64,000 bases of DNA, taken from Gonapodya prolifera JEL478. Its lineage: Eukaryota; Monoblepharomycota; Monoblepharidomycetes; Monoblepharidales; Gonapodyaceae. Below, piece after piece: positions 2,284 to 55,419 of this stretch. A program made the position numbers and the translations under genes. The DNA is taken from contig KQ965774.1 of assembly GCA_001574975.1 (NCBI GenBank), forward strand, positions 62,001 through 126,000, given 5' to 3'. Under the pieces are notes generated by a model. It was not told the origin of the DNA, did not search any database, and saw only the letters and a list, made by a program, of their open reading frames with translations. Numbering within the stretch: position 1 is the first letter of the stretch; the number at the start of each line of letters is the position of its first letter.

Positions 2284-3042
2284 ATTTGCAGTCTCTTTTG
2301 GGAGGGGAGACACGGACAAAACGAAAATGTTAAGGTTGCAGGATATTCCGTGGATATATATGGTAGATATTCCGTGTATAATTTTACAAACCATCTCGCG
2401 ACTCCAATCTCGATCGGCTCGTACACAGGTTAAATTCTGCAATGAGTGCCAGAATAAACCGAGCTTTCAGTGTACCTCCGTTCCGCACAAGACTCATGGA
2501 GCACAACACTGCGATTGAATTGTATGTGGAACACATTCCTCAGCATGTCATGAGTGAACTGTTTTCTAGCTTTTTCTTTTGATATGGGACCACTGCCGAA
2601 TGCGAAGACAGATCTGGCAGAGCCTGGGATGGCAATGCAGAGTATGGGCAATTGCGGAAACGCGAGCAGGGTCAGGAGGGGCTCGGGATGAGCTCCAAGA
2701 GTAATATGTGTATATTTTTGGGATCTGAGTGGAGATTGGAGTGACTGAGAAGTATGAAGGTCTGGTGTGCGAATTTGGGAATTGCTCCAAAAATACATGT
2801 GGGAAGAAAACAGTTGATTGTGCGGTCAACCAATGGATTACGTATGTTATTCACAAACAATACGGTGCGTCCTTCTTTCTCGTGCTGTCCACTCTCGGTT
2901 GTATTTTCCATTGTGTGAGACCTGTTCAAGAGTGGAGTCACCTGACGGCAAGCAGATCGTGTGGAACACAATGTCGGCAATGACATCAATAGTGTCAATT
3001 ATACATCCAGCTGCAACACATTTCTAAGACTTGATACTTTCT
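2284..3042. other. Spacer between SNG1-like copies A and B
   Basis: No supported gene. The stretch 2890-2990 (GTGTGAGACCTGTT followed by a GTGGAGT...GCAGATCG pattern and AATGTCGG) is similar to 5080-5165, the corresponding spot before copy C. Both therefore look like the edge of the tandemly duplicated unit. The upstream promoter of copy A should lie in 2284-2550. Confidence 0.5.
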
Positions 3043-4335
3043 TCACAGCGGTACATCCACATTTGTAGACACCGCCCTCTTCGAGAACCTCAACGGCCCC
3101 TTACCCGGTCTTGCCGGCACTTCAATCTTGCGTCCTGCTCTCATGTTCATTCTTGCGCCTACCCGTTCATTGACTCCCCTGATGTATGCAACCGTTTCCA
3201 CTACCATACAAAACACGAACCACGCGCGCATCACTAGCGCATCGCGATACAGTAAGTGCTGCTGGGACTCGAAGAGAATCGCGCGACATTCGTGGATGGC
3301 GTAGTTCGGAAAGAGCGCGTACCCGACCCGGTAGAAATCGGGCGTCAGGAGCATTTCGGGCATGCCGCCGCTGCTGGTAACAAAGACGTAGAGGAGACAA
3401 GCTTATCCGAAACGATGAAGACATTGAGAAACGTCGTGGCGGAATCAATCCGATAGGTGTGTAAGACTCACCATCAAAGCCATTGTTATGGCTGTCAAGG
3501 TATCTTGGGCTGGCTTGGTCACTGGATGAATATTGGTCAGTTTCATTGAAGAGGACCATCAAACGGCCCACAATATCAATGGTGATTCAATAAGTCGCTA
3601 TTCTTCATCAATAATCACAGAAAACTCACCCGTCAATCCAGAACGTCGTCACGTTGGCCGCACCCACGATCTTGACCAAGTTCTGCGCGAGACGACTCCT
3701 GAACAACGCGTGGAACTGCAACAAGGCATTGACAAACGAGTTGTCAATGTTATACCCTCGCCCCGAATCGTGGATATGTTCCACCGTGGAAGGAGGTGTT
3801 CCATTGAATCCAATGATCCCCACGACCAGATTTCGAGAGTAAGTTGCGGGGACAAATGCGGCGCTCCATACCCTTGAACCATCGTCGATGGTGGCCAGGA
3901 GAGTGTCGCGATCCGATATGTCCTCCATGAGTTGGAATGCTAATCGGTTTTTGGTGAACGCCTTGAGCGCCTGAACAAATGTCGTGTCCATCAGATCCTG
4001 AGGCGAAGGTAATCTGGCCACTGCTGTTGATGCAAACACAGAATAGTCCAGCTGCGGTTCTATGACACCCCAATGACGACGTTCTGTGTCCGGGGCGTCC
4101 ATAGCGCGTCGGAATGATGAATGGAAGGCGTACATGCTCAGGAAGACGGCTCCCTGGAGAATGGATGCTAGAACACGTGAGGTCCAAGCATGTGCATTGG
4201 TCTGGGATATTTTGATAGGAGCGTCCGCTTCAATGGTGTCTTCCTGGGGGAAATTGAATTACGGGACTTAGCGCGTCGCACTTCATGCTTTGTAGCATCG
4301 CGCAGTACTCACAAGTTCACTTATGCACCTGCCTA
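3043..4335 (-). pseudogene. SNG1/DUF3533-like membrane protein, tandem copy B, broken
   Basis: Copy B keeps the large exon 2 (about 4250-3630; LDYSVFASTAVARLPSPQDL through NVTTFWIDG), a short exon 3 (NIHPVTKPAQDTLTAITMAL) and the last exon with PEMLLTPDFYRVGYALFP and the end at 3043. The exon encoding the WFWWFYVG and LLGNK helices, present in copies A and C, is missing: the exon 3 donor is followed after about 80 nt by the last exon. A frameshift after SMYAFH scrambles about 15 residues. Exon 1 is reduced to a stub around 4310-4335 (CISEL followed by a GTGAGT donor). Loss of an exon plus a frameshift marks it as a pseudogene. Confidence 0.7.
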
Positions 4336-4633
4336 AACCTGCCTTTGCACTATTACGGGATACACTTTTCTGTGCTCGGCCTGCTTTGGTTTAGTCAGCT
4401 GAGTCCTCCTCGCTCCCTGATACTCGCGCAGAAAGGTAACCTGATACCACTGCAGTGATGTGCCGCAATACACTGACAGCTAAGTACACACACTATCTAC
4501 CGACTCCAGTCTCAAACAGCTCTCTCGAATAAAAATAACAAAAAGAGGAACCGGGCGCAGACTGGGCGCCGCCCTTTTCAGCATACTTTTGGTACACTTG
4601 TACATTTGATTCAGAAACAACAGGGTTGATGCT
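4336..4633. other. Duplicated upstream flank of SNG1-like copy B
   Basis: No gene is seen. The part 4430-4545 (AGGTAACCTGATACC...GCCGCAATACACTGA...CGACTCCAGTC) aligns with 7375-7485 upstream of copy C, so the tandem unit carries its 5' flank with it. Confidence 0.45.
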
Positions 4634-4965
4634 TCATTTTGGCGCATCTCTGATGTCAAAATGAATGGCCGCCCCTCGCCATGTGCGAGCAGAAGACGAA
4701 TTAATAATCTCCACATTGGGTTTGACCGCATCCACCGTGACACGGACATCCTCATCCTTAATCGGTTCGACCAGCGTCACTTCGCCACCTCTCCGACTAG
4801 TCGCGAGGTTTCCATTCGCTGTCGGTCTGGTCTGCGTGTGTCCACGACCCAAGCCAGTTGCCGTCGCCACCTTGAGGGGAGAACGGAAACTGCATGTCGA
4901 GATCCATCATCAGCGATGTCATTCGTCCGAGGTCCCAGTATGATTGCCGAAGTTAAGATTACCAA
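4634..4965 (-). pseudogene. Relic of ankyrin-cassette family
   Basis: A short minus-strand stretch contains the family block SRRGGEVTLVEPIKDEDVRV followed by KPNVEI, which matches the SLRGGAVTL.HPT and PNVEIVRLLLA region of intact members. The rest is scrambled by frameshifts, and neither the leader nor the coiled coil is present. It sits upstream of SNG1-like copy B, as the relic at 7761-8230 sits upstream of copy C, so it was probably copied with the unit. Confidence 0.5.
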
Positions 4966-9212: not shown

Positions 9213-10837
9213 CTACACGCCGTGCAGTACCCTGTCCCTGCTCCATCCACTGCAGGCAATTACCTCTCGACTTGGCGGCCCCATGACGTCCCTGACCACG
9301 GTAGACGAGGGCGGTGTGATTGGTACTTGTTGAGCAAACTGGGGGCGAGATTCGAGACGGGGTGTGGCAAGGGGTGGTGCTGTCGGTTCGCCGGATGGGG
9401 GAATGCCAGGTGTTGGTGGGACCGAAGTGACGAAGGAGAGGGGGAAGTAGCCAGATGCTTGAGTTGTGGTATGGAAACCCTGTCGTGGAATACGCTGTGC
9501 GTCAATACAAGAATTGCAGCTTCGTAGAATGACGGAAGAATAAAGCACACACCGATCCCCAACCATCGGCAAAAACAAGATTCAGGAATACCCCATCACC
9601 AGCAACAAGGGCGATCTCGTCCGCGTCTCGAGGCTCGTAATCTGCAATGGCGAACATCATTTTCCGGACCTTTTTTGGTGGCCGAACAGGGGGCTTCGGT
9701 TCTGGAGATGCTGGAACTTGGGAGCGGAGAGTGGTGATCTCCAGGCGCAAAGAGACGATTTCTTGGAGAAGAGATGTACTTTCCTGGCGCAGAGTGGGGA
9801 TTTCAAGACGCAGGCGGGCGTTATCTTGCTCCAGGGTGGAAGTGAGAGTACGAAGAGAGGACACCTCTAGGTCCAAAGCGGAGTTGCGGCCCTGGAGGGT
9901 GGAGACCTCCTGCTGTAGCTCAGCAATATATGTTTGTAACTCCGCGATTTTGTTCTCTGCGTCCGCAAGTTTCCTGGTGTCGAGTTGCGATAGAAATCAG
10001 AAACACTGCGTTTCGTAGAGCGCGGGTCAAGCAGCCCCACCTTTCTGACGCTAGCGCTTCCTCCCTCGCCGCTGACATGTGCAGTGTTAGCTCCCGAACC
10101 TGCCTGGCGTGAGAAGCATTGGCTACTTCGAGAGGGGATGGACAAGTCGATATGTTGTGCCGGGGGATTGAGCTGCGTTGGTGAGACTTCAGAGTTTCGA
10201 GGAATTCTGGATTCGGATTTCTCCGTGCAGCTTCGAGTTCGACATTGGTAACGCGAGCGCCGTATGCAAGGAGAAGGCGGAGAATCTCCAAGTTGGGTTG
10301 AACAGTCAACCAATCGCCGCACTCTTCACACTTTGTCGGGTGGTTGACGATCGCTACGCCACCCATCACACTGATCTTGAGCTTTCCGGTGCCGAATGGA
10401 ATGTCGCTCGCATTATGGTGTCCTCCCAGGTAAGCACACGTCCCCCCTCTTCCGATGGCAACAGTGATGGGAGAAGGGAAGCTGCAGGTGTACATCCATC
10501 TCTCTTTCCGCCACTCATCGGAATTCCAGCTCCGATTGCAGAACCAGTTGCTGAGTTTCCAGTTCACTTCGCCATCAACCGAAGCTCCCTTCCGAAGCAG
10601 CATTTTGACTATTCCAACATGTCCGTGCAATATTGCAAGTGCTAAAGCGCTCTCACAGTCAACAGTGTCCGTCTTCCAGTCATATCCCACGAGCCAACTT
10701 CCATTCTCCACCTTAGCCCTCAACATCACTTTCTTCCGGGCATCTGGACTCGCCCCTGAGTTGATTAACCACTCTGCTTCGGCTTCCCGTCCATTTTCCA
10801 CGGCTTCGATCAGTTCTGCGTTCAGAGAGGCGGACAT
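9213..10837 (-). CDS. Ankyrin-coiled-coil-SH3 protein (intact)
   Basis: Three exons splice in frame: 10837-10041, 9973-9553, 9479-9213 (1485 nt, 494 aa). Residues 1-30 are the family leader (MSASLNAELIEAVENGREAE). Ankyrin-like units follow at about 8-30, 58-90 (ESALALAILHGHVGIVKMLL) and 180-205 (NLEILRLLLAYGARVTNVEL), with the WRKERW block near 115-121. A coiled coil spans about 225-350 (LEQDNARLRLEIPTLRQE). An SH3 domain at about 370-424 has ALYDY-like MMFAIADYEP, the DGWG turn and a final GYFPLSFV strand split by intron 2. The tail is proline-rich. SH3 domains bind proline-rich peptides, so this looks like a scaffold or adaptor; partner and pathway are unknown. The ATG at 10837 is chosen because the leader is conserved; an upstream in-frame extension is not. 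Confidence 0.82.
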
Positions 10838-11199
10838 TTGATCAGTTCTGTGTTCAGAGACGCGGACATTTGATTGCGTCAGTGGGACGTTTGAGCGGAT
10901 ATTTGGCCAAAAACAATGTGACGTCAAAATCAAAAGCAGAAGGCAATATCGAGAGTGTAAAACCCCATCCAGGTGTTCTAATGTAACGCTCGTATTGAGC
11001 ATGCTATGAGGACGTTGTTCCGCTCCTTGACACAGGCGTTGGGCAGTGACCGCTAAACACATCGATGGACAAAATACTTGTTCAGTGGAATGAATGCTAT
11101 CCTAATCTACTTTCGAGACACCGCGCCAGCCAGCCAACTGCGTTCCCGATGCATGTAAGTTTTCTTCGACACCATCCAGCATCACCAATTGCCTCTTCA
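10838..11199. other. Upstream region of the 9.2-10.8 kb ankyrin-SH3 gene
   Basis: No gene is seen. The leader codons are partly duplicated directly upstream of the start: a second TTCAGAGA..GCGGACATTTGAT string lies at about 10851-10873, right after the ATG context. It is a short direct repeat. Confidence 0.45.
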
Positions 11200-13071: not shown

Positions 13072-13234
13072 GGGATTGGGCGCGTTGGGTATCCGCGTGT
13101 GTCGTGGATGCGATGAAAAAGGGTGAAATTTGGTAATGAATTGCCCGGTAAATTACCGGCGTGAGGTGCTGTGGCCACCTCAGTCGATAATTATATAATT
13201 ATATGCGCAGTTGTTTCCGATTCTCGACGACTCC

Positions 13235-14617
13235 ATGAGCGTGCACTCCACCCCGCTCGAAATTCTTCAGAGAATCTTCCGTTCTCTGCCACCGCGGACT
13301 CTTTTCGGGTGTGCGGCGCGAGTGTGCAGGTTCTGGAACTCGGTCGCAAAGTCGACCTTCGCATCGCCAGATGGTCGCGTCACGTTGAGGCTGCACGCGG
13401 TGTGGGGTACTCCTGACGATAATCGACCATTTGTAGTAAGAGAGGCGCATCCTCTGGTGGCATTCCAGAGGCTGCGGGGTGGGCAGGATGGGAGCACAGA
13501 CCACTGGATCGCAGGATCCATCACCGTAGAGGCCACACCACTGTTTTGGGCCGAGACAAAGTGGACAGATGGAGACACAGTAGTGGGAGACCACTCTGCT
13601 GGAATGTTGGTCAACCCGAACGTCAACCTCGGCCCAATGCTCTCCAACATCGCACTCGTCCCCACCGCCACGACGTTCTGGCCACCCACGTTTGAGGATT
13701 CTTCCCGACAGTATTCCACCCACGAGTATCCTCACGGGGTGCACTGGACGCGGGATGTTAAAATGACTGCTGCCGATTTGTCGCGTTGGTCATCCTCCAC
13801 TGCCGCCTCTCACTCCAAAGGCATCAACAACACAGTGCAAGTGCGGAATCTCACTGTTCACTACGAGGGTCTTCCTCCCTACTACGTCCTGTTTGACTCA
13901 CTGGCGCTCTTTCCTCATCTCAACACGGTTAGGATCAAAATCCGACCATGGCATGCAAATCAACCTCGCAAAAAAATGCGGCAGTTTCTCCATACAGTAC
14001 CGTTCCGCACCTATTACGCTTACCCCACATGGAACATCACTTGCTTTCACACAGACTTCAACATGGAGAGCATACAAAGGCTCCCCGCGTTTTGGACTGT
14101 GACCGGGTTCCTCTCAAGCATGACTGCCACCTTTCGGAACCTCACCACGATCGGAGACTTTGCGCTGGAATCCGTACGCAAGTTTAACCTCCTCAATGAG
14201 GCCGGCCGTTCATGCCCCAAAGTCACGACCGTGCACACCACAATCTTTGGTCGCCCCGTGAATCTTTTTGACCTCTCCACCTGCACACCGAACCACATTT
14301 CCGACTCCATCAGAGCCATTGCTGTGACATTCCCCTCACTCTCCGAACTCATCGTTACCTTCGGATCACCAAAAACCATCATGCGGATCCAAGACCACGA
14401 CACCCTCGTCTCTGCATGGCGCAGTGCGCTCGACACAATGCCGTTTCTTGAAGTGCTTCGGTTTGAAGGCCCGGGTCTCCACAGCATCATGGGCGCTCCT
14501 ATCACCCGCCCGACCTGGAAGAGCTTTTTTGAGCAAGTGGGGCGGGGACGGACGGTTGTTGTGGGGCGTGAGTGGGATGTGGATATTCGAGAGCCTGTCC
14601 TAGATGAGATTTTTTGA
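13235..14617 (+). CDS. F-box protein (single exon)
   Basis: An uninterrupted frame of 460 codons starts at the ATG at 13235 (MSVHSTPLEILQRIFRSLPP). Residues 6-45 form a typical F-box: LEILQRIF..LPPRTLFGCA..CRFWNSVA. The remaining roughly 410 residues have no recognised repeat but are evenly structured, with periodic hydrophobic strands (FPHLNTVRIKIRPW, LSELIVTFGSP, LEVLRFEGPGL). That fits a divergent leucine-rich C-terminus of an F-box/LRR substrate receptor of SCF ubiquitin ligases. The frame extends upstream to TTG at 13211 without another ATG. It is encoded opposite to the neighbouring ankyrin loci. Assignment of the F-box is firm; the substrate is unknown. Confidence 0.82.
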   Translation: MSVHSTPLEILQRIFRSLPPRTLFGCAARVCRFWNSVAKSTFASPDGRVTLRLHAVWGTPDDNRPFVVREAHPLVAFQRLRGGQDGSTDHWIAGSITVEATPLFWAETKWTDGDTVVGDHSAGMLVNPNVNLGPMLSNIALVPTATTFWPPTFEDSSRQYSTHEYPHGVHWTRDVKMTAADLSRWSSSTAASHSKGINNTVQVRNLTVHYEGLPPYYVLFDSLALFPHLNTVRIKIRPWHANQPRKKMRQFLHTVPFRTYYAYPTWNITCFHTDFNMESIQRLPAFWTVTGFLSSMTATFRNLTTIGDFALESVRKFNLLNEAGRSCPKVTTVHTTIFGRPVNLFDLSTCTPNHISDSIRAIAVTFPSLSELIVTFGSPKTIMRIQDHDTLVSAWRSALDTMPFLEVLRFEGPGLHSIMGAPITRPTWKSFFEQVGRGRTVVVGREWDVDIREPVLDEIF

Positions 14618-28430: not shown

Positions 28431-29107
28431 CACTCAATACTTGACTTGTCATGTACCGATACGGGAAAGCATTTTTTATTTGATGCATCTGGAAGGCGTA
28501 CTTTTTGTTTGGGGGCGTTGGGTCGGGGAAGATTATAAGAGGGAATGCCGGGAAATCAATGGAAGGTGCAGGCAGAACGCTAGATGACACACTTGACCCA
28601 TGTGCACGCAGGTCCGAGCAGATTACGCGTGGGTGGCATGAAATAAATGACCGAGGGCTAAGCCTGTGCGTGGAGAGGCAGCAAGAGAGACGTGGTGAGG
28701 ACCACAATCGATGTGACAAGAATTGTCTGACGCAGAATGTGGTGGAGCAGATGAGGGAGAGAGAAACAGAGCTTCTCTTAAGACGATGGCAGTTTAGTTG
28801 CCAAAGACAACCTGCCGAGAGGCATTGTTGCGTAATTTTGAATTATCAAGGGCGGTTCAGCCAGATATTAGCCGTTGCTCTGATGTTGCCGCTCCGCCTG
28901 AACATGTTACCCTCACAGGAAACTTAGTTTAATAAAACAAGAAAGATAGACTATGCCACTACACCCTAATTGTACGCCCAGGGACTAATTTTGCAACTTT
29001 CTCGAGTTTCATCTTAGTATTGGGACCAATCGAATTCCCTGCAAGAAATAAGGCGAAGCGAGGTGCAGGCACAGTGACATGGAGTGGCAAGGGGTACAGT
29101 TGGTGCA

Positions 29108-32100
29108 TCAGCAATGATGTGACGTAAAAAACAAGTTTATGTTCTCACATTCCAGATTCAGGTCAACGAGTGTGGTGTTGATTTTGAGGGCATCACGGAT
29201 TTCGCGACCACCATCGCTATCGATGTTATTACCTGTGAATAGCACGGAGGCACACAAAAACCGTGAGTCTTTCTATGTGCAGCACACACAACTCCAAGCT
29301 CCACAAGTAGGAGGACTGTGGTACTCCACTCACCTGTCAGGTCCAGTTCCGTAAGCGTCACGTTGACTTCAAGGGCGGCGGCGAATGCTCCAGCCCCACC
29401 TCCAACAGAGTTCCCTGTGATCAATCGAATGTAAATAAATCACCCAGCGCACCAAACCAACCAACCAGTTCCAAGCTCTCTGCCTTCTTTTCACACTCAC
29501 TTCTCAAAATAAGGCTCGTGAGCCCCCTGTTGACTTTGAGGGCATCTGCAAGCGCAATAGCACCATCACCGCTGATCCAGTTGGCTGTGAAAGGTTCCCG
29601 CCCAACGCCCGTAGTGAGTAAACTGCGCAATCTTTGCACCACATACATCATACACTGCATCCCCCTACCACACGAACCTGTTAGATTCAATGTGGTGAGT
29701 GTCGCATTGAATTTGAGTGCATCGGCAAGAGCAATACAAGTCCTGTCATCACATCCGACTTGGTTTCCTTTGAACAACATATGAACATAATTTTTCAGTT
29801 CGCGGCGGATTGCCCAACAACCAGGATCAACATGAACACTCCCGTGAAACTCACCTCCCAGATCCAGTTCCTTGAGCGTCGTGTTGATTTTGAGGGCGTC
29901 CGAAAACAACATGGTATCCTTACCCAGATGATTGTCTTTATCAAATCCCACACGCAAGTAGTCAACCGATACTGCTTGCGTAACGCACCCAGCTCCAAGT
30001 GGCACACTCCGCCAGCTGCACTCACCCGACAGGTCCAATTCCGTGAGCGACGCATTGACTTTGAGTGCGTCTGCGATGGACTTGGCACCATCAGCACCCA
30101 TATCGCTACCTGTGGGTAGAGCACCCACACTCTGTGAGCCAACCAACCAGCCGGAATCATCCGACTTCAAGCGTCACGTTACCCCACACTCACTCGCCAA
30201 ATCCAGATTGGTAAGCGTCGTGTTGACTTTGAGGGCCTCGGCAAGCGCCCTTGCACCTTGGACGCCGATACTGTTCCCTGCATGAAGCACCCGCAAGCAG
30301 TCAAATCAGTCATGCAGCTGCAATGATTCTGACCGACTCCAACCCCCACTCACCCTCGAAACAAAGGACCATGAGTGTCCCGTTGAGTTTGAGTGCGTCA
30401 GCAATTGCACAAGCACCGTCAACTCCGATCGCATTCTCTGGGTACAGCGTCCATACCACGGAGTCATGTAGAGGAAACTTATACAACGCACCAAACTCCA
30501 AACTGCACACTACTGCCGCACTCACTCCCCAAATCCAGGTCCGTAAGTGTCGTATTAACTCTGAGGGCGTCAGCAAGCGACCCAGCACCATCGTCGCCGA
30601 TCCCGTTGACTGGGAATAGCAACCCCAACACAGTGAGTAAACGGACGCAACCCGTGCAACGTTCCAAAATGGACGCTCCTGGAAAACTCACTTGCCAGAT
30701 TCAGTTTTTTGAGTGTCATGTTGACCTTGAGGGCGGCAGCAATCGCCCGAGTTCCATTATGACCATCTCCGACGACTTTTTTCTCTGTGGATGGCACCCC
30801 GATCTAATGAGTCAACCAGCGCAGCCAAATGACTGCAAAATTAGACACGTCTGTGAGTACACGCACCCCTTGAATTGATTTCCTTGAGAGGTGCATTCCC
30901 TCTGACCGCTATAGCAGAATCAATGTCTTTCAACACCAGCACACCGCGAGTCAACTTACGCACCCAAATAATTCCACGATAAGCAGTCACACTCACCTGC
31001 CAGAGATAGCATACCGTTTTGGCGAGCATTAAAGTTCATGACCGCGTGAGCAACATTCGCTCCTATTCTGTTCGCTGTAGCCATTGGAATGAGTCAACCG
31101 ACGCAGAAATTTCGTAATTTCGAACTTTACACTCCTGCCATACTCACACCCCAAATTCAGGTCAGTGAGTGTCTCATTTACTTGTAAGGCACTAGCAAGC
31201 GCCCTAGCACCTTCAGCTCCAATCCCATTATCTGTCAGCCGCACAGGCGCGCAGGGAGTAGGAAGTTCCACAACGTAAACACTTATATTACATGCCCATC
31301 TCTGAACAGCATGTTCCTGCAACACTCACCTGCCAGATTCAGGTTGGTAAGTGACACATTGACTTTGAGGGCATCAGAAACCGCCCGAACTCCATTATCG
31401 TCATGCCCAATTTTGTTCCCTGTTCATAGCATGGACCGCATGTGCATAAAATGAGTTTGCAAAAACCTTGCACTCCCCCTTTACTCACTCTCCAAACTCA
31501 GCACATTGAGCGACTTGTTGATTTTGAGGGCGTCGGCAAGAGCTCTTGCTTCCTTGGCACCCAACGCGCACTCTTGTGGTGTGAGGTTGTACGAGGTTGG
31601 ACCGAGAAGTTGTGAATATTGTGCAGAATCAATGCCAGCGACATCAAAAGACGCTTACGGATCAACGTGACCCTTTTCACGTCGCTCTCCGCACTGATCA
31701 GTCCCCAAATTGCGTCGGAAGGCAAAAATACATCCCGTATCACCACCTCTTCTGCGTCTTTTTTACTCCAAATTCTCTCAAATTTGGCTCGGAGACGGGC
31801 AGGAACGTGGGCCAAATTAGCATTGCCCTGGATTCCCAAGGCTTCTTGGTCTTTGAGCCTCTCTGGAACATTCCACGGATCCTTGCCTGCGCTAGAAGAC
31901 AGTTCTCTTCCACGATCCTGATCTTCTGCAACGCAGATGCCATTGTAATAGCAGTAACCAAGATGCTCGCGCCCTCCTGGATGCCCTTGGTCGCTTGCCC
32001 TCGTGTACCACTCCAAGGCCTTCCTTTTGCCTTCATCTCCAGAGATCTCTGCCCCCACAACGCCGTGAAAGTAAAGGTCGCCAAGGTTCGTCATTGCTCC

Positions 32101-34141
32101 TGTGTGCCCTTGTGCCGATGCCGCTTCATACCACCGTTTTGCACCGTCAAAATCCTTTTGTGACTCACACACCATCCCCATATTGAGCTGGGCATCCACG
32201 TTGCCTCCTTGGGCGACATCTGAGAGGTAGCGAATTGCTCGCTCACGGTCCTCGCCCACACCCAGCCCGAGCAAGTAACATTCAGCCAAGAGGACTTTGG
32301 CAAGCGGGAAGTTTCGCGCTGCCGCCTTTTCAAGCCACGACACTGCCTCTCTGTAGTCCCATCTGGCCCCATACCGATGCACGAGTGTGAAACCAAGCCT
32401 CGTTTGAGCGACGAGGTGGTCTTGTGCTGCNGCCTGTCGGTAGAATTCCAAGGCACGTTCAAAATCCCTGCTACAGGATCCAGCTCCGTGGGANTGGAAA
32501 TCACCCAAAGCGCACAAGGACCCCGGGTGGTTGCTCCTTTGCACAGCTTTCTTGTACCAGTCGACCGCCAAGTCTACGTCGCGGTGGTGGAGACCTATCC
32601 CAATGCGACACCACTCAGCACACTCGTACATTGCCTCAACATGTCCAAGGTCCGCCGCACGCTTGTACCACTGTAGAGCCTTGGTAAGGTTTCCTTCGTC
32701 NCGAGATGACTGAGCCAGGTTGAATGCTGCCAGGGGTTCATTCAAGGTGTTCGTCTCGCCACCNNNNNNNNNNNNNNNNNNNNNNNNNNNNNNNNNNNNN
32801 NNNNNNNNNNNTGGCCTACGACGGAGGGGATTCAATATGCCGGACTCAAACTTCAACCCTGTATTTTGNCACCGTACCAAATTCGTTCAAGTTCAGCAAC
32901 AATGTCTTTGAATGTTGGGCGGGCGGCAGGATCGGCAGACCAGCATTGCGTCATCAGTTGTGCAAGAGCGACCGGCATGCCCACGGGAATGGCTGGCCTC
33001 CGACCATCATAGATTTCATATATTGTGTCGTTGTCCATCTCCCCGTATGGTGAAACATCCGGTGACCATAGCTTTTAAATTTGAGTGCCCCGTGATGATT
33101 CTTGAGAGAAGTAAGTCGGGAATGTCGCACCCGGCACCCACCTCGCACATCATAATTCCAAACGCATACACGTCGCCAGCCTTAGTCACCAAGCTCTCTG
33201 CGCCTTGGATATTGAGAGAATAACCAAGTCGCTCTGGTGGGAGGTACAGAATTGTACCAGGAACGGGGATCGTACCGTCGCCTGTGGTGAGAGCCGCGAA
33301 GCCAAAGTCCGCGACCAAACCACGACCAGTCCCAGAGACGAGTATGTTCCCCGTCTTCAGATCAGTGTGAATAATACCGATCACGTCGTGTAAGTACACC
33401 ATACCCCGAGCAATGTCATAGAGCTGGAAGCGAGAATCTCAAGCATCAACAACCATCGACTCTCAACGCATTCATGAAGTTCATGAACGCACCAGGCCGG
33501 AGTATTCCAGGTAGTACTCATCCAGATTGTCACACAAACGTTCCATCCTTTGTTCGAGATATTGCCCAATGTTGCCATTCGTCATAACTGGGCAAATGAA
33601 GAACGGTTGTCTGTTTGCGTCAAAACCGACTCCGAAGAGCGATAGCACCAAAGGGGACGCTGCTGTTGACCAGACAAAGGCCTCTCTGTCGAAATCCTGC
33701 CGGAACATTGATAAGTCGTCACTGTTCAGTATTCAGGGGATTATTTGATTTTGAGAACAAGAGACTCACCATCTTTGTGTAACCATTTTCGTCTCCCTGA
33801 CCGTTGTCCGCCTTCAAAAACGTCCGGGTAGTGTGCTGCAGTCGTTTCCCCATTCTCGCTGTAACATACAGTGTTTGATCCTGGAGGCGCTCGGAGAAGG
33901 TGGGAGACTCGGCAGATGCGGCAGCACCACGAGCGGGAGCGATCTGGAGAGCATGTTGAGGGAGATGCAGGCGCGATTCGTCCAGCGTCACTCTTTTCAG
34001 GGCGACTTCCAATCCGCGCCATGTTCCGCGGTAGACAGCACCGAATCCACCCCCGCCCAGCTTTTCATTTGTCCACCGCACGTCCTGCGCATCCACTTCC
34101 CAGAATTCCGGTACCGATACCCCGTGCAGTGCCGCCATCAT
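29108..34141 (-). CDS. Protein kinase - Sel1 repeat - leucine-rich repeat fusion protein
   Basis: Kinase exons on the minus strand: 34141-33770, 33696-33493, 33423-33142, 33038 to about 32869. The kinase has a Gly loop (LGGGGFGAVYRG), VALK lysine, a roughly 55-residue insert before helix C, a catalytic loop IIHTDLKTGNILV (Thr replaces Arg of HRD), DFG, a PPE motif and AGDVYAFG, as in TKL kinases. After an ambiguous base (32869) and a 48-N gap, one exon (to 31659) encodes eight Sel1-like repeats (ALQWYKRAADLGH, GAKRWYEAASAQGH). An 86-nt intron (31658-31573) joins in frame to an NLR/ribonuclease-inhibitor-type LRR array of about fifteen units (NGIGDDGAGSLADALRVN), each on its own phase-1 exon down to the stop at 29108; units near 31050 and 30900 are degenerate. 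The frame change at 32869 coincides with an ambiguous base, so I take it as sequence error. Receptor-like signalling is inferred; no NACHT domain or signal peptide is seen. Confidence 0.75.
32764..32811. other. Assembly gap (48 N)
   Basis: It lies inside the kinase-Sel1-LRR gene between the kinase end and the first Sel1 repeat. 48 is a multiple of three, and the frame is open on both sides. Confidence 0.99.
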
Positions 34142-34223
34142 CGTCAACAACCAAACTATCGTGGCCTCACTGCGGCCGCCCAACTCGGTGCTTCACAATG
34201 CCGACAACTCAACGCGGACTGCA

Positions 34224-34987
34224 ATGGATTTCTTTGCCCGCGAACTCGTCGATCTTGCCACCTACGCAGCGCTTGGCGTAGATTTGCGCAGAACAGCGCC
34301 ACAGTGGGTCGAGAGAAGCCAGGATTTCCTTTCGCGCGTCGATCATGCGGAGCTTGCTGCACAGAATCTGGCCGTGAAACGCTGTGGAAGATGAACATCG
34401 CCGCCTTTGAGGCTATCCGCTCCCAGTCTTCCGCTCGGGTCCACGCATCTTGGCTTTCTGCCGCGAAGATCCATCCCTCTTCTACCGACAGCAACACACA
34501 CCCGGGAGACGACGCGCCCAGTTTGGGACGGAGCTCCTCGATCCCTTGTTTTCGGTCGACCTGTCCCGTGTCTCACACGTGCTCGACCTTTTGCTTTACG
34601 CCCCTCTCGGCATCGACTTTGACAACACTCTTCCACTCATGCCCTGTGAAGGTCAATTCAACCACGACTCGCTCACCCATGAGCAGTTCTGGTACATTGC
34701 CGGCATGAAGGGCGGATCCCGCCTTCTCTGGCAGCTATAGCTCACGCGTTTTGAAGTTGCCCAGGGGGACCTGTACTCCCGTCCCCATTGATTGGCTTGA
34801 CGTACGTGTGCCGCGACATTCAGTTAAGATGCTTGAGGAGCTTTCGCAGAAGGAGGACTTTGGGGCGTTCGTTGTCTACTGGTATCTGGCGTTTTATGGA
34901 AGGTGGTACAATTTCCCTGTGGGAAAGGGTACGCGATCACTCGTAAGGGGAGTGTTGATGGCGTTTGGGCTGCTCTGGCTGACATAA
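34224..34987 (+). CDS. Hypothetical protein, three exons (tentative)
   Basis: I do not recognise this protein. Exons 34224-34383, 34469-34691 and 34765-34987 join in frame through GT-AG introns of 85 and 73 nt, the size usual here, giving 201 aa (MDFFARELVDLATYAALGVD at the start). Two segments resemble each other: FARELVDLATYAALGVDL..TAP and LSRVSHVLDLLLYAPLGIDF. The first donor (GTGGAA) and second donor (GTACAT) are not the strong GTGAGT seen elsewhere, so the model is uncertain. The start lies 82 bp from the start of the divergent kinase-Sel1-LRR gene, so the two could share a promoter. The 3' end meets the tail of the minus-strand ankyrin pseudogene. Confidence 0.4.
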
Positions 34988-36585
34988 GACGAAGTGCCAA
35001 AGAAGCCTAGCGTCGCGGGAAAGACGAAGGTCGAGGTGAAAGAAATGATTTCTTGAATAGTGAAAACAATACGCAAATACGCATCGATAAAACCATTATA
35101 TCTAAATGCCATGATTGCAATGTAGTATTTTACACACAAAAACAATTTAAGGAGCACTTTCGACATCGACGTCAAATGTGCGACAAGTGCCACAAACGGC
35201 CACAACCCACGCCAGATACACACAGAGGTCGGCCCAGCATGGAACCCTCGAGATACCAACGGCACATCCCAGTTCTCACCTTCGGCCGCTTCCAGTTTCC
35301 ACATTCCCGCCGAGGACTCCCATTGTATCAAACCTTGCTCAACCATCCCAGCACCCACCTCCGTTTGTGCTCCAGGATTCGCCCACCACTGACCCTGCTG
35401 TCCCAACCCCCCACTCGCGGTCGGCACTGCCCCAACCCGTCCCGATACCGCCCTCGGCGGCCCCGCGACATCCCTCACAGTCCACGAAGATGATGGTGGT
35501 GTTTGGAATGGCTGGGCGGAAAATTGGGGGCAGTGAGTCCAGGCGGGATGCGGTGGGTCGTTGGGCGGAAGGTGCAGGTGGGATGGAGCCGGGTTGGGGG
35601 CCGTCAGGGGATAAATGGGACAGGGGAAAGTGGCCCGGCCCGATGCTTGGGTTGTGGTGTGAAAGCCCTGCGAGGATCGTGTCAACCCATGGAACGGGAT
35701 GAAAGTACGGTAGATAGAGCAGGTGTACTTACTGTTCCCCAACCGTCTGCCTACTCAAGGTTGATGAAAATTGCGTCCCCATTGACAACCCCAATCTCAT
35801 CGTCGTCATTGGGTTGGTGGTCGGCGATAGCGAACATCATCCGGCGGACGCCCGTGGGTGGACGCGGTTGGGGTTGTGGATCTCAGTGAAGCTACCTCGC
35901 TCATGAGTGCCGTGTTGTGGTTGCGGAGCGAGGACGCTTCCTGGCGCAGAGAGATGGCTTCTTGACGCAGTAACGTTATTTCTTGCCGGAGGTGGGGAAG
36001 GTCGATGCGAGGGAAGCATTGTCTTGCTCCAAAGTAGAGTTGCGGGTACGAAGGGTGCTGTTCTTTTGATCCAGCACCGAGTTACGGGCTTGCAACGTCA
36101 CACTGTTTTGCTCCGCTTCCACTTGTTTCCTGGTGGGGCACGTCGAAGTCAAACTTCAAACCAAGACCCAACGCAAATGGCGTGCAGTAGAACTCACCTC
36201 TCTGCAACCCGTACTTTCTCTTCCGCAGCTACGACGCGCGCGGTGGGTTCTTCGATCTGTGCATTGGCAAGTTCGAGTGGGGAAGGTCCTGGAGGAGAAG
36301 GGCGGGGAATCGGGCTGCGTTGGTGGGACGAGGGCACGAAGGAATTCCTGGTTCGGATTCGTCCGTGCGCCTTTGAATTCCACGTCGGTGACGCGTGCGC
36401 CGTGTGCGAGAAGGAGTCGGACGATCACCACGTTCGGCTGAAGAGTGATCTCGACACAGGCATCGTCCCACTTTGTTGGGTGGTTGAATATGACAGTGCA
36501 TCCTCGCGGACTGATGTTGAGCTGTCCGTTGACATCTGGAGTGTCGGATTTGCTTCCATAATACCGCTGTTACCCGGTCAAAATA
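34988..36585 (-). pseudogene. Ankyrin-coil-SH3 family member, 5' truncated
   Basis: Similarity starts abruptly at about 36585 within the middle of the cassette (SKSDTPDVNGQLNISPRG), just where the longer dispersed repeat region begins. The last ankyrin unit (VVIVRLLLAHGARVTDVEF) and NPNQEFLRAL follow, then a coiled coil (LRQEAISLRQEASSLRNHN) with two frameshifts, and an SH3 start (MMFAIADHQPNDDDEIGVVN) with a TAG just before ADGWG. The last exon begins GFHTTTQASGRATFPCPIYP and remains open for over 200 codons to about 34894, overlapping the tentative plus-strand gene. The leader and first two ankyrin units are gone. Confidence 0.65.
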
Positions 36586-38484: not shown

Positions 38485-40943
38485 TCACACTCCCCTGACA
38501 TCTTTCAACCTCGCCACAATCATCTCAAACGTTGGTCTCTCCGCCGGATCCGTCGCCCAGCACTCCCGCACGAGCTTTTCCAAGGATTTCGGGATCCTAT
38601 CTGACTTGAAGATTGCCGGAACGGCACCATCAATAATCAATGTTACAAGGGCGTTGGTGTTGTGCGCTTTCAGTTCCGAAAAAGCCTTGCGTTCCGCCCA
38701 CACCTGATGACGTGACGGTACACAATTGGCAAGGTCAGCAACGAAATCGCAAGAAAAAGTATCAGCTCGCGTTACACATACCCTAAGCACCGTAACACCA
38801 AACGCATACACATCGCCCGCCTTCGTCGCCTGAGTCGCGCCGCTAAGTCTCTCCGGGGGTTGATACACGGCCGTCCCACCCCTGTCCGAAATCTCATCCG
38901 CGTCGCCAACGAGCGCCTTGGAGAACCCAAAGTCCGTCACGCGCGTGGTCCCATCGGCGTCCACGAGGGCGTTCTCGGGCTTGAGGTCGGCGTGCACGAT
39001 ATTGCGGATGTCGTGTAGGTAGTGCATTCCGGCGGCGATGTCCCGGACCTGTCGAAGCAGCAATAGCAATTAAGCGATCTCGTGTGACGAGATAGCGTTG
39101 CACGCGAAGAGGGGACTCACAATCTTGAGTTTATCAACATACTGCCCCGTGTTCCTGCAGTGCGTGATGTACTCCATCACGTTACCGTAAATCATGTATG
39201 TCGAGATCATGAACGGTTCTGGCGCATCCCACGAGGCGCCAATAAGTGACACGATGTTATTGTGCACGCCGGCCCCGTACCAAGCCGTCACTTCCCGATG
39301 AAACGCCTGGTGAGTGGTGATGAAGACCGCGTTCAAAAACGTAATTCTTCTCAGCATTGCACGAGTAGATCCCCACCTCCTGATACCTCTCCTTCTGTTT
39401 CGCGTTTCCCATTTTGATATACTTGACGGCGGCCTTCATCGAAGCCCAGTCACAGAGGTAAACAGTGCCGTACGCGCCCTCCCCGAGTTTGACGCCTCGA
39501 ACCAGGCCAGCGTGGTCGACTTCCCATAGCGCTTTTGCTTTTGGTTGAAGGGGTACAGATACGGGGATTTCCATGTGGGAACCTGTCCAGTTTGTTCATT
39601 GGGTCCACGACACACGGTTTTTTCATCAAGTCTGAGTAGTGATAAAACTCAAGGTGCTTACCTGAACTGGAGGACCGAACAAAATTATCCAACTTCACAG
39701 GCTGCTCATTTTCAGTGGACGTCTTGTGCTCCAGATGTGCACTTTCGGCCGCGACTGCAGTTGCTGCACTACTAGGCTGCTCCACGTTTACTTGAACGCC
39801 AACATTGGTGGATTTCGAATGTGACGTCGAGTTCGACAAAGAACTGGTAAGAAGCGCAACTTGGTCGCGGAGGGCGGAACGTTCCCGTTCACGATCAGTA
39901 TCGCGACTGCGAAGAGACGCGTTCTCGTTTTGCTGAGTGAAGACTTCTTGCTCCAGTTCCGAGTTGCGAGTGCGGAGCGCAGAGTTCTCGTTTTTCAGGC
40001 CCGCGGCCTCCTCCTCCAATGAATAGATACGAGCCTGCAGTGCTGCAACATTCCTCTTCTCATCCTCCAGTTTCCTGGTTGAAAGGTGAAAGGTGAAAGT
40101 TGAAATCAAGGTATCTCAAATAACAACCAATGACACGCACCTCTGTGCAACTCCCGCCTTTTCCTCTGCAGCTACGACACGCGCAGCAAGCTCTTCATTA
40201 CGCGTGGCGTTATTAGCTGCGGTGAGCGTGAGCGAGGAGGGACCAAGTAGAGCAGGGTTCGGGATGGGGTTGCGTTGATGGGCCTCCAGAGTGCGAAGAA
40301 AGTCTTGATTCGGGTTCACGCTAGCAGCGGCAAGCTCATCGTTGGTGACATATGCACCATACGCAAGAAGGAGACGGACAATCTCCACGTGTGGTTCAAG
40401 GGTGAAAACGACACGGGAGTCGTCACGTTCCACCGGGTGGTTGAGCGTGACTGAGCCGCCACTCAAACTCATGTCTAGTTGGCCTTCAGCATCAGGTCTG
40501 TCGTATATGTGACCATTCCACAGTGTCGCTGTCCCGCCACGTCCAATGGCGAGCGTCAACACATTTCGGAAAGTCACAGTGACCTGCCATCGCTTTCGCT
40601 GCCAATCTTCCAGTGTCCAATTCTGACTGCCTAGCAACCAGTTGCCGACTTTCCAGCTGACCTCGCCTTCGATTACCGCTCCTTTGTCCAGGAGAGCTTT
40701 CACAACAGCGATCCTCGCATGTAAAATCGCAAGCACCAATGCACTCTCGCAATCAATGGTGTCCTCCTTCCACTCGAATCCAGGTCCTCCTCCAAAGAGT
40801 CCTTTTGCCTTCACAACCTTCGCCCTGAGTGTGACCCGCTTGCGAGCATCGGGACTCGCCCCCGACTCGATTAATCGCTTCACGTCGTCCTCGCTCCCGG
40901 TTTCCACGGCTTCAATGAGCTGAGCATTGAGAGTCGCGGACAT
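38485..40943 (-). CDS. Ankyrin-coiled-coil-protein kinase (intact)
   Basis: Six exons splice in frame: 40943-40141, 40074-39662, 39582-39377, 39306-39121, 39048-38782, 38703-38485 (2094 nt, 697 aa). Residues 1-268 are the ankyrin cassette (leader MSATLNAQLIEAVETGSEDD; LAILHARIAVVKALLDKGA; EDWQRKRWQVTVTF; HVEIVRLLLAYGAYVTNDEL). The coiled coil spans about 270-360 (LEEEAAGLKNENSALRTRN), then a Ser/Glu-rich linker. The kinase spans about 434-690: LGEGAYGTVYL, Lys459 in AAVKYI, Glu479 in helix C, VHADLKPEN (Asp557, Ala instead of Arg), DFG at 575, PPE at 600, AGDVYAFG, and RECWATDPAERPTFE near the end. It matches TKL-type kinases and resembles the kinase at 33-34 kb. Intron 1 has the same position and phase as in the SH3 members. 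The catalytic residues are present, so activity is likely. Partner and pathway are unknown. Confidence 0.85.
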
Positions 40944-41320
40944 TTTCAATGGTTCTGCGGGAACTGTTCGGGGGGATGTTTGTGAACAAGAGGAGAGAAG
41001 TGGCGGTCCGCAGCTGGACCACATATTCGTTACGATTAATTTTCTCCAGGTCTCACATTCAAATCATATCATTCTGCCTAAGACCGACTCCATACCTCAC
41101 CTCAGAAAGCCTCTCACTCCATTTTCCGTCCGCTGAAACATCACTCCAACTTCCTTCCACTCCCTCTGTCCCCGCATCTTACCAGCGCGATTGAGATGCA
41201 AGGTCCGATGAATATATCCGTTCTTAATCAACTACTTGCCACTTGAAGTTCCGGCAGTGCCACCATGGGCCACAAGTCCCATGACTTTATCCACACTATA
41301 CTCCAACCAGCTCCGCCTGT
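40944..41320. other. Intergenic between two same-strand ankyrin-family genes
   Basis: 377 bp serve as 3' flank of the SH3 gene and 5' flank of the kinase gene. No further gene is seen. Confidence 0.5.
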
Positions 41321-42998
41321 TCACAACCACTCCAGTCGGGGCACCGGTAAGTGCACCGTCGCCAAGCTCTCTGACTCTCCACCATCCGTGCTCACAATAG
41401 ATCTCGGCGGCCCCGATACGCCTCGTATTGTGTGCGAAGAGGATGCTGATGGCGGGCGTATTGTTGGTCCTTGCTGAGCAGAGAACTGGGAGAGTGATTC
41501 AACACGCAGTGTGGTCGCAGGTGGAGCAGCCGAGGTTGGGTCTAGGGTGGCACTGGGCAGCCGCGGGTCGGGTGTGACGGGTGTGACGGGTGTGACGTGG
41601 GAGAGGGGAAAGTAACCAGTTACATTTGTGGTTGTGTGGAAGCCCTGGAAACATGCACGGTTGGCCATGGACAAAAAGTGCCACTTCGATACGCCCTTCG
41701 GCAACTCACTTCTCCCCACCCATCGGCAAATTGTATAGTGACAAAGATCCTGTCCCCAGCCACAAACCTAATCTCATCAGTGTCATTTGGTTCATAGTCG
41801 GCGATGGCAAACATAATTTGCCGGACGCTTGTTGACGGACGGACCGGTTGAGACTGGGCCGGGCCAGATGAGACTTGTGCGCGGAGCGAAGCGACTTCAC
41901 TCATAAGCGCAGTGTTGTGGGAGCGAAGGTATGTGACTTCTTGCCGTAAATTCGAACCGTCTTGTCGCAAGGAAGAGTTGTCGTGTCGGAGAGTTCCGTT
42001 GTCTTGCTCCAGGATTGCGTTGCGGTTGCGAAGGGAACTGTTGTCCTGTTCCAGGTTGGAGTTACGCCCACGGAGGGTGGAGACCTCCTGGTCTAGCACT
42101 AAGTTCCGGTTTTCTAACGCAGAAATGCGACCTTGTAGCGCCGCGGTGTCTGCCACTGCCTCCGCCCGTTTCCTACGATTTGAACTTTCCATTAGAACTT
42201 TTTCAACGCATTATCCAGCACCACCCACCTCTCTGCAACCCGCGCCTTCTCTTTCGCGGCTACAATACGTGCGTGGAGCTCTAAAACCTTCGCTCCGTGT
42301 ACAGCATTGGCGAATCCGAGCGGGGAAGGTCCAGGAGCGGGGTTACGTTGGTGAGACTCAAGAGTGCGGAGAAATTCTTGGTTTATATTCATCCTAGCAG
42401 CATCGAGTTCAGCACTGGTAACTCGGGCACCGTACGCGAGTAGGAGCCGGACGATATCCAAGGTTGGTCGAACAGTGAATGCGACAATGCACTCGCGCCA
42501 CGTCGTCGGATGGGTGAGCACGACCGCTCCGCCTCTCAGACTGATGCGGAGTTTTCCATCACCGTCCGGAATGTCGCGAGTGTCTCCATCCCAGCGAGTC
42601 CACTTCCCGCCACGACTGTGAATGGCAGCAGCAAGCGGAGAAGGGAAACTGTGCGTCGCGTACCATCGCTGTCGCTGCCATTCAGTGGATGTCCAGTTCC
42701 GGCTTCTCCCGTAGCTGCTGAGGTTCCATTGGACTTGGCCATCAATTCTTGCTCCTTTCTCGAGCAACGCCTTCACCACTGCAACCCTTTCATGCAGAAT
42801 CGCCAGCAGCAGTGCACTCTCGCACTCCATCGCGTCCTCCTTCCACTCGAATCCTCCCCGTCTATTGTCCACCTTCAGCCTTAATGTGACTCTCTTCCGG
42901 GCATCCGCACTCGCCCCGGCCTCAATCAGCCGTTTCACGTCCTCGTCTCGTCCATCCTCCACCGCCTCAATGAGCTGGGTGTCCAGATTGGCGGACAT
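41321..42998 (-). CDS. Ankyrin-coiled-coil-SH3 protein (intact)
   Basis: Exons 42998-42229, 42172-41710 and 41644-41321 splice in frame (1557 nt, 518 aa); the introns are 56 and 65 nt. Residues 1-257 form the ankyrin cassette (MSANLDTQLIEAVEDGRDED; ESALLLAILHERVAVVKALL; TEWQRQRWYATHSFPS; TLDIVRLLLAYGARVTSAEL). The coiled coil, about 258-365, has clear heptads and several repeated LEQDN / LRHDN / LRQDG steps. SH3 is at about 376-428 (IMFAIADYEPNDTDEIRFVA, FADGWGE, GYFPLSHV). The tail is 90 residues, Pro/Ser-rich, with a TPVTPVTP repeat. Its position directly upstream of the ankyrin-kinase gene on the same strand suggests a tandem duplication in which only the C-terminal module differs. Confidence 0.86.
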
Positions 42999-53477: not shown

Positions 53478-54551
53478 TCACGCCATCTGTTGTCGCAGCA
53501 AAAAATTCTCCTGACGAAGGGTCGCGGTCGCCTGCATTAGAGCGGTAATGTCGTGTTTGAGTGATGCAAGGTCGCGTTCCAGGGTGGAGGTGAGGCTGCG
53601 AAGTGCAGAGACCTCCTGCTCCAGAGCGGAATTGCAGGTTTGTAGCGCGGCGGCATTTGTCTCCGCTTCCACGCGTTTCCTGGTGAGTATCACCGCAGGT
53701 GAAATCAAAAGCAAGTCTCGACGCAAATGCAGTTCCACCCACCTCTCTGCAATCCGTGCCCTCTCTTCCGCCGCTGCCGCACGAAACTCCGCCACTGCAA
53801 CACGTGCGGCGAGTTCCCGCACCTGCTTGGCGTGCTCAGCATTTGCGAGTTCGAGAGGTGGAGGCTTTGAACTAGCCGGTGCAGGGCGAGGTATCGGGCA
53901 ACGTAGGTGAGTCTCCAGAGTGTGCAAAAACTCTTGGTTGGGATTTTTTCTCGCTGCGTCCAGTTCCGCGCCAGTGACACGTGCGCCGTACGCGAGCAAG
54001 AGACGGACGATCTCCAAGTTGGGGCGAACGGCGAACAAGACACTGCACTCTTCCCACGATGTCGGGTGGTCGAGTGTGACTATGCCGCCTCTCAGACTCA
54101 TTTCAAGCTGACCGTCGCTATCTGGACATTCGACCGTGTCTCCGTCCAACACTGCTTCCTTCCCGCCATATCCAATGGCAACAGCAAGAGCAGAGGGGAA
54201 ACTGTACGACCCAGCCCATCTGTACTGCTGCCACTCGGATGCAGTCCAGTTGCGACCGCCGCAGTCGTTGCTGAGTCGCCATCCCACTTCGCCGTCGACG
54301 CTCGCGCCCTTCTCCAGCAGCACCCGGACAAGCCCCACCTGTCCATGTAGCACGGCAAGCACCAGCGCGCTCTCGCACTCCACTGTGTCTTCCTTCCAGT
54401 CGTACCCGCCACGCCCGTCCTCCACCTTTGCCCTCAGTGTGACCACCTTCCTTGCGACAGGGCTCGCCCCGGCCTCAATCAGCCACTTGACATCCGCCTC
54501 CCGTCCATCCTCCACCGCGTCGATCAGCTGAGCGTTTAAAGTAGCCGACAT
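53478..54551 (-). CDS. Ankyrin-coiled-coil protein without C-terminal module (intact frame)
   Basis: Exons 54551-53743 and 53679-53478 give 1011 nt, 336 aa. The 63-nt intron (53742-53680) is at the conserved cassette/coil junction; it is also stop-free and a multiple of three, so retention would add 21 residues. The ankyrin cassette is complete: MSATLNAQLIDAVEDGREAD, ESALVLAVLHGQVGLVRVLL, SEWQQYRWAGSYSFPS, NLEIVRLLLAYGARVTGAEL. The coil (LEQEVSALRSLTSTLERDLA, LRQENFLLRQQ) ends in Met-Ala-stop before the usual Pro-rich linker, and no SH3 or kinase is found downstream. It could act as a module-less partner for coil heterodimers, or be a 3'-truncated gene that happens to end cleanly. Confidence 0.75.
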   Translation of the reverse strand: MSATLNAQLIDAVEDGREADVKWLIEAGASPVARKVVTLRAKVEDGRGGYDWKEDTVECESALVLAVLHGQVGLVRVLLEKGASVDGEVGWRLSNDCGGRNWTASEWQQYRWAGSYSFPSALAVAIGYGGKEAVLDGDTVECPDSDGQLEMSLRGGIVTLDHPTSWEECSVLFAVRPNLEIVRLLLAYGARVTGAELDAARKNPNQEFLHTLETHLRCPIPRPAPASSKPPPLELANAEHAKQVRELAARVAVAEFRAAAAEERARIAERWVELHLRRDLLLISPAVILTRKRVEAETNAAALQTCNSALEQEVSALRSLTSTLERDLASLKHDITALMQATATLRQENFLLRQQMA

Positions 54552-55419
54552 GTTCCTTGGTCTCTGATTCGTGATTTGTATATTGACACCGGGCCGGGTT
54601 TTAGCCGTGTTCAAATTGTGCCGGGTGTTTTGGTCACCCCCAAAACCATTTTGTTTTATTAAAGCATTTAACACATTTTGGCAATTGACCCCCGCCATGA
54701 AACACGACGAGCAGAGCATCACGGAACACAAGCGATGCGCCCATCGGCTTCCCAGGCAATAGAAGAGCCGTTGCTCGTAATCGAGGTCTTCAGCACCATT
54801 CACATCGAATGTACCGCATTCGAGTACATGTAACAGTACCAGCCAACTCAATATAGTGCGGCTACGATTCATCCAGAAACCTTCGCCGGGACCGTCCTCG
54901 TCTCGAGATTTTGGTTTACGGGTGGGTCAACCTTCAATAGGAAGGGCCGGGGTCCCGCGGCTAGTTACCGTCGAGGTCCTTCTCGCGGGAGCAATCAGAT
55001 GCTCTCACTGCCTCACAGTCGTTTGGATGTCCCGCCAGCCCGGAATCGCGGGGTGTTCTGCTGGACTTCGCGATATCAGAACAAACTCACCTCCGCGACC
55101 GTATTTCCACCGTCACGTCTGATACATTGGAGCACAGCCGAGAGAGCTTGTCTCAATGAATTGCATGATGTGATGGCAGTAAGCCCTCGGGAAGAACGCC
55201 ATCCAGTCGTCGCCGCCGCAGGTGCGGTCTGGCCATCCATCACGATCCTTTTGAGATGCTCCGCGGAAAAGATGGCTCTCGATTTCCATCGGCGACGGGA
55301 TTTTCCGGTGGTGTCGCGAAAATGTGTCAAATGTTCAAATATTCAAATGGAGACCATAAATACGGTATATTCCACTACATTCAAGCCGACATTACCGACC
55401 AGTTTTCCGCCAGTCCCAT
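54552..55419. other. No recognised gene
   Basis: Upstream flank of the ankyrin-coil gene, then unremarkable sequence with short unsupported frames. Confidence 0.4.

Follow-up and report, generated by a model that had tools for sequence, protein, structure and literature searches.

Can a single gene join a protein kinase, Sel1 repeats and leucine-rich repeats (LRRs), and what might such a protein do? The question is raised by a locus on the minus strand of a 64,000-nucleotide stretch of DNA (C44:62001-126000 of a 47.56 Mb genome in 207 contigs), the whole of which we call the window. An original prediction, made from the letters alone, had placed these three parts in order on one strand. Spliced, positions 34141-28959 yield 21 exons that form a single open frame of 1,177 codons (3,534 bases), in which the sole stop is the terminal one; the two alternative frames contain 36 and 58 stops. 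Four exons encode the kinase (34141-32878), one the Sel1 repeats (32815-31659) and 16 the LRRs (31572-28959), and all 20 introns of the spliced model run from GT to AG, with lengths of 62-110 bases. Among 34 other loci fetched from the genome, 14 show the same order. The predicted arrangement is thus upheld, whereas the predicted end of the gene at 29108 is replaced by one at 28959.

A Pfam check on the combination of kinase, Sel1 and LRR_6 recovered all three in pieces of the window: PK_Tyr_Ser-Thr (8e-37) and LRR_6 (2e-46) in the spliced parts, and Sel1 (2e-40) in the Sel1 frame. When the 35 sequences (window and 34 loci) were base-shuffled once, the LRR and Sel1 models gave no matches. Hydropathy, the one method used and with 16 codons lying in an assembly gap, revealed no membrane span (top 19-residue value 1.56), and no Pfam match to NACHT or NB-ARC, nor to a ROC-COR GTPase, was found in the scanned gene pieces. 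Because no membrane span and no NACHT or NB-ARC match were found, the gene product is by membership neither a receptor-like kinase nor an NLR. Of the receptor-like design without NACHT that had been proposed, the second half agrees with these searches; the first would concern function, and finds no membrane span to go with it.

Gene structure and the two junctions

The first kinase exon (33770-34141, minus strand, like all exons of the gene) carries the start codon, a GGGGFG glycine loop and the VALK lysine in the spliced model; the start of one paralog, L005, resembles it (MAGMHTARLPEFWEV...RWTNEKLG). Exon 2 (33493-33696) is followed by exon 3 (33142-33423), with the HTDLKTGN catalytic loop, DFG and PPE, and by exon 4 (32878-33071), which the spliced model and the paralogs identify as the end of the C-lobe (...ELERIW). 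The catalytic residues are kept (VALK, HTDLKTGN, DFG), and the kinase matches PF07714 at 8e-37 and PF00069 at 1e-25. Its best 60 matches in the PDB are tyrosine kinases such as ABL, EGFR, Src and Eph. Combined with a loop of Ser/Thr type, these matches lead us to read the kinase as TKL-like; the predicted kinase fold, with its Lys, HxDxKxxN and DFG, is plain, and the TKL label stays a reading.

Two junctions had been doubtful. Between kinase and Sel1, the 62-base intron 32816-32877 (GTACGG...CGTAG) emerges from comparison with paralogs. Each of the eight paralogs printed has a short stretch ending in AG between the end of the kinase and a P(E/D)L motif, which reads PEL in seven of them and PDL in the other, and the window acceptor that matches them stands just before an assembly gap and is followed by GCCA. 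Because the paralogs break at the matching place, we read as intronic both the lone N at 32869 and the apparent stop behind it, which lie within 32877-32816; the true stop that the original prediction had allowed for at 32869 gives way to an intron. Between Sel1 and LRR, the intron 31573-31658 (GTAAGC...CAAG), found by the spliced model and kept in a near-identical copy on C102, links the two parts in frame as predicted. A GTA(A/G)G donor stands at the matching site in eight of ten regions printed (the window, L001, L002, L004, L005, L006, L007 and L009), and L008 and L015 are unclear. A frameshift, with coding continuing past GTAAGC in another frame, was considered and rejected: L005 shares the donor and has different sequence after it, so the stretch is taken as an intron.

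The Sel1 exon (31659-32815), supported by Pfam, the repeat model and the spliced model, holds seven detected Sel1 repeats and a C-terminal linker. Eight had been predicted; the repeat model gives seven and Pfam six passing stretches, and the eighth was found by neither. The assembly gap at the start of the exon (32764-32811) comprises 48 N, or 16 codons, where the paralogs read ..ELPELRPIPSN.., and the spacing to the next conserved residues agrees with that in L002.

The LRR part follows as 16 exons. Thirteen pass the repeat model and belong to the spliced model: exons 1 (31489-31572, 84 bases), 2 (31330-31419, 90), 3 (31148-31231, 84), 6 (30692-30784, 93), 7 (30526-30609, 84), 8 (30354-30437, 84), 9 (30194-30277, 84), 10 (30026-30109, 84), 11 (29855-29935, 81), 12 (29678-29767, 90, with the donor GTTCGT), 13 (29501-29584, 84), 14 (29334-29414, 81) and 15 (29149-29232, 84). 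The remaining three fail the repeat model and were read manually. Exons 4 (30997-31074, 78 bases) and 5 (30867-30926, 60 bases) are degenerate, and the C102 copy preserves their frame and splice sites; there the automatic chain chose other pieces. Exon 16 (28959-29038), the terminal exon, encodes a C-terminal cap (..GRTIRV) and the stop and is also kept in C102; the automatic chain ended elsewhere. In this manual model each of the 15 LRR exons before the terminal one has a length divisible by three, and eight of them measure 84 bases. The repeats are of the ribonuclease-inhibitor (RI) type, of about 28 residues: the array matches LRR_6 at 2e-46 and, in the PDB, RNase inhibitor, NLRPs and RanGAP1. 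The predicted type is therefore borne out, and the predicted count of about fifteen becomes 16 exons with 13 passing. A tandem repeat finder returned no entry for the window array.

A gene family with the same architecture

The 34 other loci scanned with the window were picked from the best matches listed, so that counts among them do not stand for genome-wide rates. The order kinase-Sel1-LRR on one strand is found in L002, L004, L005, L006, L007, L008, L009, L015, L018, L023, L025, L028, L029 and L034. Five of these are weaker members: L023 (two LRRs), L025, L028, L029, in which a further Sel1 after the LRR perhaps marks two genes, and L034, with a long-branched kinase and an HAD loop. L001, the C102 copy, shows Sel1 and LRR, its kinase falling within an N run. 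Kinase and LRR without detected Sel1 occur in L031-L033, kinase alone in L030, LRR alone in five loci (L003, L010, L011, L013, L014), and LRR with a kinase fragment on the opposite strand in L012. With the junction introns and the order recurring in paralogs, the gene is a member of a repeated architecture, an expanded family in this genome.

The catalytic loops were compared as well. Among 29 kinase rows, picked by likeness to the window kinase, the catalytic loop was seen in 25, and in none of the 25 does Arg precede the Asp (non-RD): 19 read HTD, one YTD, one HTN and four HAD. Across the genome there are 46 occurrences of HTDLK and 13 of the reversed pattern, and a count by hand places 24 of the 46 within or just beside the kinase matches listed. 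HRDLK occurs 101 times against 39 for its reverse; among the 100 places listed, two fall within and one beside listed kinase matches. A within-genome kinase tree (23 rows, 95 columns), with two of 20 inner branches well supported, cannot separate a single gain of LRRs from repeated gains. One well-supported pair of sisters joins L009, which has LRRs, to L020, where none was detected; LRR loss or swap therefore happens.

Constraint in a near-identical copy

The C102 copy is 96.7% identical to window 28610-32763, a comparison that covers the Sel1 and LRR parts, with the kinase outside it. We rejected the idea that it is a haplotype of the same locus: the match ends at window 28610, where the further flank diverges, and the other side is an N run. 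All eight single-base indels within the gene are intronic (1,370 compared intron bases), with none in 2,427 compared exon bases, a distribution with a chance of about 0.0003 if indels were evenly spread. Past the stop, the 336 bases compared contain 13 more gap columns. The raw divergence between the copies amounts to 1.6% for the Sel1 exon, 3.0% for the LRR exons and 3.4% for the introns, and all 16 introns compared retain their GT and AG ends. The ratio of nonsynonymous to synonymous substitution rates (dN/dS) is 0.18 for Sel1 and 0.35 for the LRRs. Given the intronic indels and these ratios, we conclude that the Sel1 and LRR parts are constrained.

One peculiarity concerns the assembly. Three single Ns in the C102 copy stand at the window copy's relative positions (L001 5873, 5936, 6143 and 6206, the start of the N run included), as if the assembler had masked sites indistinguishable between the copies.

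Evolution of the leucine-rich repeat arrays

In the window, the array is encoded by about one repeat per frame-preserving exon. Automatic modelling of 21 loci gave 163 internal LRR exons, of which 105 have a length of exactly 84 bases and 134 a length divisible by three; of the 184 introns, 166 lie in phase 1. More than half of the internal exons have 84 bases in 12 of the 21 loci, and exactly half do in the window and L001.

Repeats often, though unevenly, resemble others in their own locus. The comparison took in 84-base exons in phase 1 from 12 loci, 83 in all, and left aside exons of another length or phase as well as nine loci; for 54 of the 83 the nearest relative lies in the same locus, against a mean of 6.4 and a maximum of 16 with shuffled labels. 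The proportion reaches 10/10 in L002, 7/7 in L009, 8/8 in both L033 and L003, 7/8 in L007 and 5/7 in the window. Introns are strongly alike only in L002, on C201 (mean identity 0.89 versus 0.59 shuffled), which shows that exon and intron were copied together, a conclusion confined to C201. The young LRR array there occupies L002 7668-10000 and continues into L003.

The ten exons of C201 do not vary evenly. Pairwise difference is 0.6% in helix codons, 7.3% in introns and 22.1% in strand/loop codons, and strand/loop difference exceeded that of introns in 2,000 of 2,000 bootstraps. Synonymous sites split likewise (helix 0.000, strand/loop 0.27). Because they do so, and because the proportion of nonsynonymous differences (pN) lies below that of synonymous ones (pS), the C201 pattern is a mosaic at the DNA level and does not prove that the protein was under selection. 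Perhaps the helix half was converted, or the other half exchanged. A wider look at positive selection on the LRRs did not demonstrate it, and the C201 pN/pS count ran against a simple protein-level reading. For concave codons pN is below pS in ten of 12 loci and above it in L015 (0.641 versus 0.635) and L011 (0.674 versus 0.461). Both the concave set and the division into helix and strand/loop were chosen after the per-column profile had been seen.

In LRR exons of 13 loci, codons 14, 15, 17 and 18 favour GCC CTC ... GTC AAC over background codon use, taken from five Sel1 stretches. CTC, for example, accounts for 52 of 81 Leu codons, against 0.21 in the background, and GTC for 26 of 39 Val codons, against 0.20, as though conservation acted on the DNA itself.

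Possible function and alternative explanations

What, then, might the protein do? The family looks like a set of sensor kinases; that its members sense anything is something we infer. The LRR horseshoe would bind a protein or peptide ligand within the cell, and the Sel1 solenoid would hold LRR and kinase together or gather several copies. The gathered non-RD kinase would switch on by proximity and then phosphorylate a downstream target. Frame preservation by the LRR exons of the window means that exon gain, loss or skipping could alter the ligand surface while the protein stayed intact. We put the chance that the locus encodes, in a single gene, a cytosolic sensor kinase of three parts, belonging to an expanded family, at about even. 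More tentatively, the family could be an intracellular repertoire for non-self recognition, with the non-RD kinase in place of the NACHT switch, Sel1 as an assembly platform and the LRR exons as a surface changeable through duplication, conversion and possibly alternative splicing; we consider this wider proposal possible but doubtful.

Several observations weigh against a sensor kinase. RI-type LRRs are common to many other proteins, and several of the PDB matches are flagellar. Between the window and C102 the LRR ratio is below 1, and its contrast with Sel1 is not firm, being drawn from a small sample of 18 changes in Sel1 (7:11) and 40 in the LRRs (21:19). In C201, strand/loop pN (0.20) falls below pS (0.27), which does not demonstrate positive selection at the protein level, and in L004 (0/7), L008 (0/4) and L018 (0/7) no repeat has its nearest relative in its own locus. 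Nine loci (L016, L017, L019-L022, L024, L026, L027) have kinase and Sel1 with LRR not detected, so that not every relative includes the LRR. Finally, Sel1 matches are interrupted by stops in L006 (the C86 copy) and in L008 and L025 (the two C72 copies), and several members have decayed.

Alternatively, the family could consist of scaffolding or housekeeping kinases that act, for example, in signalling of the zoospore, the flagellum or the cell cycle, with LRR and Sel1 serving only as docking surfaces for proteins and nothing foreign being sensed. The LRR array does match flagellar DRC5, LRRC34 and radial spoke protein 15, and also RanGAP1, beside RNase inhibitor and NLRPs; a radial-spoke protein is found in the genome, from which we take the organism to be flagellate; and dN/dS stays below 1. 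Counter to this, a many-copy family with decayed members, a dispersed recent duplicate and within-locus likeness of repeats in several loci would all be unusual for a housekeeping gene. We regard such a role as a real, though minority, possibility. The same decayed members raise the question of whether the whole family is non-functional and kept by duplication alone. Besides the stops, L008 has only two Sel1 matches, L024 carries Asn for the catalytic Asp and L020 Tyr for the loop His, and exons 4 and 5 of the window are degenerate. Yet in every exon compared the window copy and C102 have their frame and splice sites intact, with dN/dS well under 1, and general decay is unlikely. Least probable of all, to the point of being nearly dismissed, is that a kinase-Sel1 gene and an LRR gene merely lie next to each other and resemble a fusion. 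Loci with kinase and Sel1 and no detected LRR, like the five with LRR matches and neither kinase nor Sel1, would fit such neighbours; the order repeated in 14 loci, the junction breaks and donors at matching places in paralogs, and the single frame running through all exons speak for one gene.

Comparison with known systems

HxD without Arg, as in the window kinase, is a trait of non-RD immune receptor kinases. NLRP3 is built with NACHT and PYD, in place of which the window gene has an N-terminal kinase. The LRR domains of human NLRs, NLRP3 among them, are otherwise similar in their RI-type LRRs, exon modularity and frame-preserving exons (PMC6642158). Oomycete LRR receptor-like kinases also unite LRR and kinase (PMC3019232); the window gene differs from these and their plant counterparts in having no membrane span found, an N-terminal kinase, RI-type LRRs and Sel1 between the two.

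Closest in exon layout are the brown algal ROCO genes, candidate immune receptors with one LRR per fixed-length exon and tandem LRR exons. They are described as LRR-ROC-COR proteins with a GTPase and no other domain combination, their LRR exons have 72 bases in phase 2 rather than the mostly 84 bases in phase 1 of the window family, and positive selection and splice variants are reported for them only (PMC11378527).

Among fungal proteins, LRR and kinase have been reported together in four Batrachochytrium dendrobatidis genes and five in filamentous ascomycetes. Like the window gene, these have both parts in one predicted protein with no membrane region; going by their descriptions, and unlike the window gene, no Sel1 is mentioned in the portion of the text at hand, and the ascomycete genes are intronless and bacterial-like (PMC2939053). 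For Rhizophagus irregularis, high-copy kinase and Sel1-like families are listed next to each other, with no LRR mentioned in the corresponding excerpt (PMC8647823). The kinase-Sel1-LRR architecture itself appears in no open-access paper among the matches listed, judged by titles and the beginnings of abstracts, in line with the statement in the original prediction that no kinase-Sel1-LRR(RI) architecture is known to have been described.

Surveys also state that no LRR pattern-recognition receptors are reported in fungi (PMC2939053), that fungal NLRs have no LRR motifs and that chytrids have no NLR matches (PMC4986451; likewise the review PMC12881547). The genes are compact and their introns short, as might be expected of an early-diverging fungus. 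If the genome is fungal, about fifteen of its loci make up a candidate repertoire of LRR sensors, in which a near-identical pair allows comparison, and the family adds a further case of one-repeat-one-exon LRR arrays to those of human NLRs and brown algal ROCOs. Should the sensor reading hold as well, LRR sensing would occur in a kingdom from which LRR pattern receptors and LRR-type NLRs are reported to be absent. Our guess is that the family was overlooked since separate 84-base repeat exons are easily lost in gene prediction. The choice of LRR model alone would not explain the oversight, because the spliced array also matches LRR_1 (PF00560), used in the 2010 survey, at 54 bits against a cut-off of 20.6.

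Neighbouring sequences

Pfam was run on 19 of the 35 long frames of the window; 12 had no match at E up to 1e-5. Five are ankyrin-repeat frames on the minus strand (9923-11101, 40119-41063, 42195-42998, 53481-54926 and 60541-61839), one is an F-box-like frame on the plus strand (13199-14614) and one is coiled-coil-like. Just upstream of the gene, 34207-35299 is 82% identical to C32:68200-69304 and is perhaps a repeat or a duplicated gene. Further upstream on the same strand, 38785-39045 (minus) is another kinase match, at 53% to the C-lobe query from the window kinase.

The genome search gave one match to the NACHT model, a search in which weak matches can be missed. It lies in L035 (C152:22501-29500) at 597-4747 on the plus strand, where an 873-aa frame has Pfam matches to NB-ARC and many TPR repeats and a hydrophobic C-terminus. 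A kinase match precedes the frame on the same strand, and a second similar NB-ARC-like frame begins at 6355. From its domain matches, L035 looks like a kinase-NB-ARC-TPR gene.

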